From: Candidatus Rokuibacteriota bacterium
GTDB lineage: Bacteria > Methylomirabilota > Methylomirabilia > Rokubacteriales > JACPHL01
Direction of reading: 5' to 3'
Assembly: GCA_016188625.1 (NCBI GenBank)
Contig: JACPHL010000013.1
Location: forward strand, 1-7,698
DNA: 7,698 nucleotides
Position numbers and translations under genes: made by a program
The notes under the pieces: model-generated
Databases searched by the model: none
What the model saw: only the letters and a program-made list of their open reading frames with translations
Told to the model about the DNA's origin: nothing
Shown here: positions 1 to 7,698 of the stretch, piece after piece
Layout of the letters: each line of letters starts with the position of its first letter
Position numbering within the stretch: the first letter of the stretch is position 1

Positions 1-7
1 CCCGGGA

Positions 8-73
8 GGGCCCCGCCCGGCGAGCCACTGACGGGTGCGCCGCGGAGCGTGTGGAGCGAGGGGCTGATGCCTC
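8..73 (-). repeat. Dispersed repeat, copy 1 (minus orientation)
   Basis: The reverse complement of this stretch matches 4733-4798 over 66 bases with three substitutions and no gaps. The core, read on the minus strand, is CCCCTCGCTCCACACGCTCC, followed by a conserved CGGCGCACCCGTC block and a GTGGCTCGCCGGGCGGGGCCC block. It starts about 40 bases after the stop codon of the small minus-strand gene at 115-336 and runs in that gene's direction, so it could be transcribed as part of its 3' end. Similarity to copy 2 fades at about base 7, near the window edge. No coding capacity is convincing. Confidence 0.85.
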
Positions 74-89
74 CCGGGGCGCCGTCTAT

Positions 90-104
90 GGGGGCAGCGC
101 CCCC
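90..104 (-). terminator. GC hairpin after the small membrane gene
   Basis: A perfect six-base inverted repeat (GGGGGC / GCCCCC, loop of three) sits 11 bases past the stop codon of the minus-strand gene at 115-336 and before repeat copy 1. The minus-strand bases that follow contain no run of T, so it is not a classical intrinsic terminator. It may slow polymerase or protect the 3' end of the transcript. Confidence 0.35.
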
Positions 105-114
105 CTTCGAGTGT

Positions 115-336
115 TTACCAGGGCTGCGCGGCCCGCTGCTCCAGGATGGTCGCCACCACGCCGCCGGCCGTCGCCACCACGAGGGCGAGGATCAAGAGCG
201 CGCCGAAGAGGCGGCGCCCGCGGGGGGCGGGCGGCCGCCAGGCGGCGGCGAGGACTCCGAGCCCGAAACCCATCAGGCCGAGCGCCAGGGCGAGGTAGGC
301 CCCTCGGAGGAGGCTCACGGCCCCTCGATTCCCCAA
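115..336 (-). CDS. Small two-helix membrane protein, unknown function
   Basis: A 73-residue protein that I do not recognise. It has two strongly hydrophobic stretches, about residues 8-32 (rich in Leu, Ala and Gly) and about 43-63 (Leu-Phe-Gly-Ala-Leu-Leu-Ile start), joined by a short basic, Pro/Arg-rich loop at 33-42. This suggests a hairpin-like inner-membrane protein with the positive loop in the cytoplasm. The listed start is a TTG. An in-frame GTG six codons in (minus strand, 316-318) has a GAGGGG stretch just upstream and is an equally good choice. The hydrophobic pattern is unlikely in an out-of-frame shadow, and the gene is divergent from the kinase gene. It could still be spurious, because any GC-rich frame stays open easily. 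Confidence 0.5.
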   Translation of the reverse strand: MGNRGAVSLLRGAYLALALGLMGFGLGVLAAAWRPPAPRGRRLFGALLILALVVATAGGVVATILEQRAAQPW

Positions 337-3931: not shown

Positions 3932-4387
3932 ATGACGATCCGCACCGCGGTCTTCCCCGCGGCGGGCCTGGGCACGCGCTTTCTGCCGGCCACCAAGGCC
4001 CAGCCCAAGGAGATGCTCCCCCTGGTGGACAAGCCCACCATCCAGTACGTCGTGGAGGAGGCGGTGGCCTCCGGGCTCGACCGCATCATCATCGTGACCG
4101 GGCGCGGCAAGCGGGCCATCGAGGACCACTTCGACGCCTCGGTGGAGCTCGAGTTCTACCTGGAGGAGCGGGGCAAGCACGAGGAGCTCGCCCAGATCAA
4201 GACGATCTCGGACCTGGCCTCGGTCAGCTACGTCCGGCAGAAGGAGCCGCTCGGGCTCGGCCACGCCATCCTCTGCGCCCGGCCCCTGGTGGGGGAGGAG
4301 CCCTTCGCCATCTTCCTCGGGGACGACGTCATCACGGCCGAGCCCCCCTGCATGGCCCAGCTCCTCGCGATCTTCCACCGGGGGTGA
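3932..4387 (+). CDS. galU: GalU N-terminal fragment
   Basis: 151 residues covering most of the nucleotide-binding half of GalU, with the glycine-rich loop, Lys26 and the LGDDV metal-binding region, ending at a TGA (4385-4387). If translated as it stands it would lack the sugar-binding half and should not be active alone. An alternative start at 3926 adds two residues. Confidence 0.65.
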
Positions 4388-4734
4388 TCAAGGGGCATCG
4401 GGTCGAGGAGCGGGTCTGGGAGGTCGAGGACCTGATCGAGAAGCCGAGCCCCGAGGCGGCGCCCTCGGACCTGGCCATCATCGGCCGGTACGTGCTGACC
4501 CCCGAGATCTTCCCCGTCCTGGCGGAGACCGCCCCCGACCGCCGCGGGGAGATCCAGCTCACCGACGGGCTCCGCCGGCTCCCCCGGCTCTACGCCTACG
4601 AGTTCGAGGGGAAGCGCTACGACACCGGCGACAAGCTCGGCTTCCTCAAGGCCACGGTGGAGTTCGCCCTGACCCGCCCGGACCTCGCCGACGCCTTCCG
4701 CGACTACCTCCGCTCCCTCCGCCTAGGAGGGTGA
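4384..4734 (+). CDS. galU: GalU C-terminal fragment
   Basis: 116 residues starting at a GTG that overlaps the preceding stop in a GTGA arrangement, the geometry of translationally coupled genes. It holds the EKP motif (19-21), GEIQLTD (55-61) and YDTGDK (79-84). It could in principle be made as a second polypeptide, but the roughly 20 residues missing at the junction make a functional split enzyme doubtful. Its stop codon lies inside the first bases of repeat copy 2. Confidence 0.6.
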
Positions 4735-4798
4735 GGCGTCAGCCCCTCGCTCCACACGCTCCACGGCGCACCCGTCTGTGGCTCGCCGGGCGGGGCCC
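4733..4798 (+). repeat. Dispersed repeat, copy 2 (plus orientation)
   Basis: This copy is 63/66 identical to copy 1 in inverted orientation and begins on the galU TGA. Three nested pairings can be drawn: GCCCC (4742-4746) with GGGGC (4792-4796), CCACA (4752-4756) with TGTGG (4777-4781), and ACGG (4763-4766) with CCGT (4772-4775) around a CGCAC loop. Of the two copy differences that fall in stems, one keeps a pair (A-T to G-T) and one breaks a terminal pair (A-T to A-A), so covariation neither supports nor excludes a folded RNA. The substitutions are at 4738, 4763 and 4777. Confidence 0.85.
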
Positions 4799-5158
4799 CT
4801 CCTCCTTCGTTCTGAGCCCGCGAGCCGGCTTCCCCACCCGGCTCGCTCACGACGGGGACCCGCGCCGCTCCGCTTAACGTTCCGCTCGGGGCCGACGCCT
4901 CCCCCCAAGGGTGCTCGGGCCAAGCCGGCGCTCGGAGTGGACCATCCATCCGCGAGGCGAGGGTCCGGAGCGTGCGAGCTGCTGGCTTTCGCATGGGAGG
5001 CTCCGCCGGGGGTTCCCGGCGAGCGAATTCGGGCGAGCCGTGTGGCCGTGCGCAGCGCAGGGCGGGGCGGAGCGCGCGGGCCCGACACCGCTGACCTCCG
5101 GTCGGGACCTGAACGTCCTCCCCCTCAGGGGGCTGGGGGGTCGCGCGGAGCCGGTTGC
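4799..5158. other. Gene-free region with several hairpins
   Basis: About 360 bases between repeat copy 2 and the hsp20 promoter hold no convincing gene. Frames are open but their translations are low-complexity Arg/Gly/Pro with no family resemblance, and the long plus frame crosses the promoter. Three perfect stems are visible: GCGAGCCGG (4820-4828) with CCGGCTCGC (4838-4846); CGCCGGG (5004-5010) with CCCGGCG (5015-5021), loop GGTT; and CCCCC (5120-5124) with GGGGG (5128-5132). None is followed by a T run. The stretch may be a non-coding RNA, a decayed element or plain spacer. Confidence 0.5.
4820..4846 (+). terminator. Perfect nine-base-pair hairpin after galU
   Basis: GCGAGCCGG and CCGGCTCGC form a perfect stem around a nine-base loop, about 85 bases after the galU stop and just beyond repeat copy 2. 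No T tract follows, so intrinsic termination is uncertain. Confidence 0.35.
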
Positions 5159-5186
5159 TTGACTTCCCGCGGGGGTCTGCTACAAT
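5159..5186 (+). promoter_or_regulatory. Strong extended -10 sigma70 promoter for hsp20-pncB-trpC
   Basis: TTGACT (5159-5164, five of six consensus) is followed by a 16-base spacer and TACAAT (5181-5186, five of six), with a TG-n extension at 5178-5179. The predicted start is near 5193, leaving a leader of about 35 bases before the hsp20 GTG. I see no CIRCE-type inverted repeat for HrcA and no sigma32-like element, so the small heat-shock gene appears to be under a housekeeping promoter. Confidence 0.8.
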
Positions 5187-5227
5187 CGGCCCTACTTCGG
5201 GGCCCGCCCCGAAGCCTTGAGCCTGGG

Positions 5228-5596
5228 GTGGATCTACGCGATTTCTCGGCCCTGCGGTTCCTCTACGCCTTCCCCCCCGCCGAAGGCACGGAGGGGCTCT
5301 GGCGCCCGCCCGTGGACCTCTACGAGACGGCGGCGGAGGTCGTCGTCGAGCTCGAGATCCCCGGCGCCGCGCCCGGCAGTCTGAGGATCGTCTGTAACGG
5401 GGATCGCCTCTTGATCGAGGGGGCGACGGAGCCCCGCGCCCTCGCCCCCGCGGACGGGCGCTTCCTCTGCCTCGAGCGCGCCTCGGGGCCCTTCCGGCGC
5501 GTCCTCGACCTCCCCGGGCGCGTGGATCGGGAGCGCGCCGCCGCCCGCTACCGGGACGGCATCCTCACCATCACCCTCCCCAAGGCGAGGGCGTGA
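5228..5596 (+). CDS. hsp20: Small heat-shock protein, Hsp20/alpha-crystallin family
   Basis: 122 residues, an ATP-independent holdase that keeps unfolding proteins soluble. The alpha-crystallin domain covers about 26-119, beginning RPPVDLYETAAEVVVELEIP. It contains NGDRLLIEG (58-65), ERASGPFRRVLDLP (83-96) and the family signature GILTITLPK (111-119). The N-terminal arm is short (about 25 residues), and the protein stops three residues after the signature, so the usual C-terminal extension with its I-x-I/V oligomer-linking motif is absent. Assembly into large oligomers may be reduced. The GTG start is the first in-frame start after the promoter but lacks a good Shine-Dalgarno; the frame stays open upstream through the promoter. 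Its stop is four bases before the pncB start. Confidence 0.85.
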   Translation: MDLRDFSALRFLYAFPPAEGTEGLWRPPVDLYETAAEVVVELEIPGAAPGSLRIVCNGDRLLIEGATEPRALAPADGRFLCLERASGPFRRVLDLPGRVDRERAAARYRDGILTITLPKARA

Positions 5597-7653: not shown

Positions 7654-7678
7654 CTCGTTGTGTCCGGGGAGCGCCCCA

Positions 7679-7698
7679 CCCCTCGCTCCACACGCTCC
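7679..7698 (+). repeat. Dispersed repeat, copy 3 (plus orientation, truncated by window end)
   Basis: The last 20 bases are identical to the repeat core CCCCTCGCTCCACACGCTCC found at 4743-4762 and, inverted, in copy 1. The rest of the repeat would lie beyond the window. It begins 63 bases after the trpC stop, in trpC's orientation. Bases upstream of the core do not match the other copies. Confidence 0.8.

Follow-up and report, generated by a model that had tools for sequence, protein, structure and literature searches.

What accumulates behind the stop codons of this bacterium, a transcribed signal at the end of genes or a piece of mobile DNA? The question arises from a stretch of 7,698 bases, the entire contig C22 and hereafter the window, of a groundwater Rokubacterium genome (2.60 Mb in 344 contigs, 84% complete). 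The window's gene content is unremarkable and includes a broken nucleotidyl transferase gene, an Hsp20 gene and one for indole-3-glycerol phosphate synthase. A sequence-only reading had noticed a 66-base repeat following three genes, always in the orientation of the gene before it, and had offered two explanations, a 3' untranslated element for termination or mRNA stability, or insertion behind genes by a small non-autonomous element. Context counts were made on 100 stretches of the source genome (842 kb) and supplemented by whole-genome searches. Gene neighbours were taken from a home-made codon-usage gene caller, on which the gap lengths depend.

The repeat is real. Its two 66-base copies (8-73 on the minus strand, 4733-4798 on the plus strand) match at 63 of 66 bases (95%), the window closes with a third, truncated copy, and the distances to the stop codons had been read about right (38 bases, an overlap with the stop, and about 50-60 bases). 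A 17-base core, present exactly in the cut third copy (7682-7698), has 84 matches with up to two mismatches in the 2.60 Mb, against three for the reversed control. The 66 bases are, however, only the left part, one arm, of a unit of 172-174 bases whose ends, GGGAGGCGTCGGCCCC and its complement, are inverted repeats. The assembly breaks at the repeat, which places both window ends within copies; two of the three window copies are therefore truncated by the contig and not by biology. The features of the window are:

1..75, plus strand (folding strand): second copy, truncated where the contig begins; it is the minus-strand copy seen earlier at 8-73
90..115, minus strand: hairpin at a gene end, from a second repeat family (ACTCGAAGGGGGGCGCTGCCCCC) with 86 such sites in 842 kb
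4730..4903, minus strand (the best-folding strand; the earlier 66-base copy reads plus): complete 174-base element, aligned with 50 other copies
4730..4746, plus strand: left end, inverted-repeat arm GGTGAGGCGTCAGCCCC
4888..4903, plus strand: right end, inverted-repeat arm GGGGCCGACGCCTCCC, from the copy alignment
4907..4943, plus strand: fragment belonging to a third repeat family (AAGGGTGCTCGGGCCAAGCCGGCGCTCGGAGTGGACC), immediately after the complete element
7667..7698, minus strand: third copy, its first 32 bases and then the contig end, from the copy alignment

The covariance model recovers the second copy at 1-53 on the plus strand, cut at its 5' side. Within the left end of the complete element, TGA at 4732-4734 is the stop codon of the preceding gene, and this TGAGGC variant of the end recurs in the stretches L022, L035 and L047. 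Among the aligned copies of the 842 kb, about 51 have 172-174 bases, two 188, one 107 and six 52; the remaining copies are cut or truncated. The 52-base form is a palindrome of little more than the two ends joined. Full copies share a median pairwise identity of 89.6%, are very G+C-rich and lack TA at their ends; nearly all copies lie, as non-coding DNA, between called genes. In L074 (about 2050-2330), 41 bases from the 3' end of a gene, its stop codon included, recur as a direct repeat on the other side of an element. The nucleotidyl transferase (GalU-like) gene of the window is split into two frames (3932-4387 and 4384-4734) matching positions 6-115 and 156-239 of Pfam PF00483, with about 40 positions missing; the break may be real decay or an assembly error.

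The placement of the copies follows gene ends and not gene strands. Copies with both neighbours known lie in 20 convergent, 33 tandem and 3 divergent gaps, where intergenic length predicts 5.4, 37.6 and 13.1 (chi-square p 4e-11), and the neighbouring gene ends comprise 93 3' ends and 45 5' ends. The constant orientation described earlier applies to the three copies of the window; across the genome, the copies in same-strand gaps run 14 times with the genes and 19 times against them (p 0.49). The convergent enrichment shows that copies are truly linked to gene ends, and this mixture that they are not linked to gene orientation. Random placement, which would have spoken against the earlier reading, was thus found for the strand and not for the gene ends. 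Avoidance of promoter regions alone would give the same placement without any targeting.

The complete window copy folds as a single rod, with -110.3 kcal/mol (z -5.7) on the minus strand and -86.7 kcal/mol (z -2.9) on the plus strand. The same strand is favoured by energy in all 53 copies of the source genome, which are not independent of each other, and one strand in 24 of 25 copies of relatives, where both strands fold well (mean z -5.2 and -4.3). Copies lying sense and antisense are equally stable (-112.8 and -112.1 kcal/mol), which argues that the structure belongs to the element and not to the host gene. Double changes that keep the pair occur within the source genome at 12 of 49 pairs. 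In 42 aligned members across genera, changes on both sides occur at 18 of 30 pairs; the covariation score was 0.231 against 0.075 on shuffling (0/500) and at most 0.077 with the partners slid. Since the alignment was fitted to the model, the score is tilted towards the structure, but by much less than this wide margin would require. Conserved internal loops accompany the covarying helices. In a palindrome, covariation can partly stem from arm-to-arm repair. For strand polarity, G.U was compared with A.C: with pairs taken from the folding strand's own structure, a biased choice, 163 cells stood against 11, while a strand-symmetric pair set favoured G.U at 18 pairs against 5 and, counted in cells, only at 163 against 147. 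As the G.U evidence partly depends on the strand structure used, the fold appears to have a moderate strand asymmetry.

A search with the covariance model over 95 genomes of the phylum was positive in 11, with several genera of the same order represented; copy numbers of relatives are lower bounds, as the best candidates per genome were scored. The carrier relatives are labelled Candidatus Rokuibacteriota. One carrier (G002) comes from another family, and within the class a further family contributes two genomes with weak matches only. Copies of the relatives measure about 250-290 bases and have a variable tip. Since the two 188-base copies of the source genome retain part of this tip, the 172-base form is probably an internal-deletion derivative. 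The plasmids, phages and viral contigs searched held no match. A contig filed under Candidatus Wallbacteria (L160, JACPRK010000024.1, 6926-7010) ends in a copy of the source genome's own 172-base type and is likely mis-binned or mislabelled.

Three operon junctions offered a comparison of filled and empty sites in the relatives, separate from the source genome's own copies. Upstream of murC, behind a gene of the FtsW/RodA family, the junction measures 291-335 bp with the element in G019, G037, G028 and G039, against 12 bp in G033 and -8 bp in most others. G033 belongs to the same genus as G019 and G037, and its MurC is 96% identical to the query. The murC copy of G039 is reversed. Between etfA and the acyl-CoA dehydrogenase gene, about 271-331 bp in G019, G025 and G037 stand against 0 bp in G033 and -4 to 17 bp in most others; between degT and a glycosyltransferase gene, 251-296 bp in G028, G037 and G039 stand against -4 to 7 bp in most non-carriers, and G025 has a short palindrome of joined arms. 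In tree tests, one origin of the three degT copies was rejected (AU p 1.5e-5), a single origin of the murC copies was not (AU p 0.33), and for etfA, whose junctions also hold older nested fragments in the flanks, the test gave AU p 0.067. Independent insertion of the three etfA copies was considered and dropped, the test being not significant and the flanks holding these fragments. The four murC copies may represent one ancestral insertion, hence part of the spread may be inheritance. Inheritance thus goes together with repeated arrival at the same junction, or with the exchange of a resident copy for a different one. Repeated arrival could reflect targeting or simply a tolerance of such junctions for inserts. 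At the degT junction of L211 (G033) and L212 (G019), a different palindrome, GGGTCAGGTCTTGCA...ATGCAAGACCTGACC, occupies the place where relatives carry the rod; it extends into the beginning of the following gene, the same junction having been entered by another type of element.

Which explanation accounts for this pattern? If the repeat were a host RNA element (terminator, stability or processing signal) selected behind genes, with the rod as the functional RNA, one would expect the observed excess of 3' ends (93 to 45), the covarying rod and the energy advantage of one strand, which holds for all 53 copies of the source genome and for 24 of the 25 from relatives. Such an element should, however, read with its gene, and the folding strand does so in 19 same-strand gaps and runs against the genes in 14; sense and antisense copies are equally stable, a T-tailed hairpin is lacking, and the orthologous junctions are empty in most relatives. 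We therefore rate this origin as very unlikely. An intrinsic terminator was rejected after no G+C-rich hairpin followed by a T run was found at window positions 4600-5300, and an oriented 3' untranslated element because of the mixed orientation and the presence inside operons of relatives in both orientations; the first explanation of the sequence-only reading is not supported. Rfam covariance models gave no match near the gathering score in the window and none at E 0.5 in the relatives. An artefact of assembly or binning, with repeats made at contig ends or by chimeric contigs, could draw on the many copies near contig ends. Three contig ends (L013 1-290, L053 1-350, L071 4060-4387) fold back at a copy, with the flanking gene piece duplicated in inverted order, and these fold-backs are probably assembly artefacts at palindromes. 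Many other copies, however, lie deep inside contigs with different flanks, and homologues lie inside long contigs (up to 81 kb) of independent genomes. The artefact is refuted for the family as a whole and has next to no probability as its explanation; single copies at contig ends remain uncertain.

The second explanation offered at the outset has held. Because of the dozens of copies, the internal-deletion forms, the patchy presence in relatives and the filled and empty orthologous junctions, the repeat is, with high probability, a family of non-autonomous, MITE-like, almost wholly palindromic mobile elements of Rokubacteria. An enzyme acting in trans would have transferred the unit, by copying or by relocation, to non-coding sites; there it would persist mainly behind stop codons, in convergent gaps and operon junctions, and rarely between divergent promoters. 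Most likely, insertion behind stop codons is tolerated or targeted and effects on transcripts are at most incidental; by analogy to ERIC, flanking transcripts may experience at most an effect on processing or stability. Later fates would include loss of the middle (52-107 base forms), truncation, overlay by other repeats and a flip in place, the latter, as at murC of G039, being most simply explained by recombination between the inverted ends.

The mode of movement was approached through candidate enzymes and target sites. A narrower form of the mobile reading holds that, as with REPINs or integron attC sites, the unit can move only as a folded single strand, be it ssDNA or RNA, and that the covariation marks the substrate of an enzyme. 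The covarying helices with conserved internal loops, the preference of G.U over A.C at 18 against 5 pairs and the lack of a detected target duplication are consistent with it. Yet a Y1 transposase (PF01797) was found neither in the source genome (84% complete) nor in several other carriers, though present in the carriers G019, G037 and G028 and also in G018; no integron integrase exceeds the cut-off in the source genome, in contrast to several non-carriers. Furthermore, the relatives' copies fold well on both strands, and by cells the G.U comparison amounts to just 163 against 147. We regard this narrower form as possible and rather doubtful. A carrier transposon with matching ends was not seen by eye in the 842 kb of this 84% complete genome. 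In the search for target-site duplications, the longest flank matches resembled those of a swapped-flank control, a comparison that might overlook duplications if they are old, short or variable. The flanks were in general no more complementary than swapped flanks; a small excess was confined to the 14 bases adjoining the ends on the outside (5.31 against 4.75, 0/300), where the palindrome may simply extend by a few bases. That a folded single strand of fixed polarity moves and is steered to junctions of stop and start codons in operons, the rod being the substrate of an enzyme not previously linked to the mobilisation of repeats, appears unlikely; if true, conserved gene clusters would be entered repeatedly without being broken.

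Further repeats surround the element. The second family is a hairpin, ACTCGGAGGGGGGC-NNN-GCCCCCCTTCCGA, often situated a few bases past stop codons and beside the element; this family could represent a hairpin proper to gene ends or a mobile palindrome in its own right. In the window, the hairpin at 90..115 sits between the stop of the minus-strand gene and the second element copy. The module of 4907..4943 is also found beside many other gene-end hairpins. Additional modules (e.g., CGCGGGCAAAGCCCGCG...GGAGCGGACCATCC) combine with the element into intergenic mosaics, and G044, which belongs to a different genus, has a related module at its etfA junction (L195, near 2650-2720).

The element is short, multi-copy and intergenic, with terminal inverted repeats and with filled and empty sites in relatives, all properties of MITE-like repeats. 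Target-site duplication is listed for most, not all, such families and is not a condition for the kind (PMC2229807). Among known repeats, comparison by description, not by sequence, leads to YPAL/RU-2 of Yersinia, which has about 168 bp, is mainly intergenic, not A+T-rich and without TA ends, is predicted to form long stem-loop transcripts, inserts at or beside dyad symmetry and is known from filled and empty sites (PMC2229807). The element shares the size, the palindromic build, the lack of A+T-richness and of TA ends, and its copies too often adjoin a palindromic gene-end hairpin. It differs in that YPAL generates a target duplication of 3-26 bp (PMC2229807), none being detected here, and in its terminal inverted repeats, very G+C-rich sequence and Rokubacterium host. 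ERIC (IRU, RU-1), found in transcribed regions between genes (PMC2229807), is likewise a small non-coding intergenic repeat with one long stem-loop, but has 127 bp, TA ends and a target duplication, and it is for ERIC that orientation-dependent effects on mRNA have been demonstrated (PMC2229807). Correia elements (NEMIS) resemble the element in terminal inverted repeats, size (about 107-155 bp), hairpin transcripts and long and short forms; they differ in TA ends, an IHF site and a known processing by RNase III (PMC2229807). REP sequences and REPINs are also extragenic palindromes of high copy number with a strand-folded unit, yet they consist of short units tied to a Y1 (RAYT) transposase (PMC3116915), whereas the element is one 172-base rod. 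A REP/REPIN identity with RAYT was rejected for lack of a Y1 transposase in the source genome, and an integron attC site for lack of an integrase over the cut-off there and because the window copies stand beside housekeeping genes. By these likenesses, the element comes closest to YPAL/RU-2 and, in kind, is to be grouped with ERIC and NEMIS.

In the open-access literature we found no paper describing the element, which is apparently a palindromic family of mobile repeats, hitherto undescribed, from an uncultured lineage. For the source genome, it probably explains the frequent breaks of the assembly. For the biology of such repeats, the filled and empty junctions at murC, etfA and degT make two old questions testable by comparison: why these repeats gather behind stop codons, and whether the operons they have entered change.
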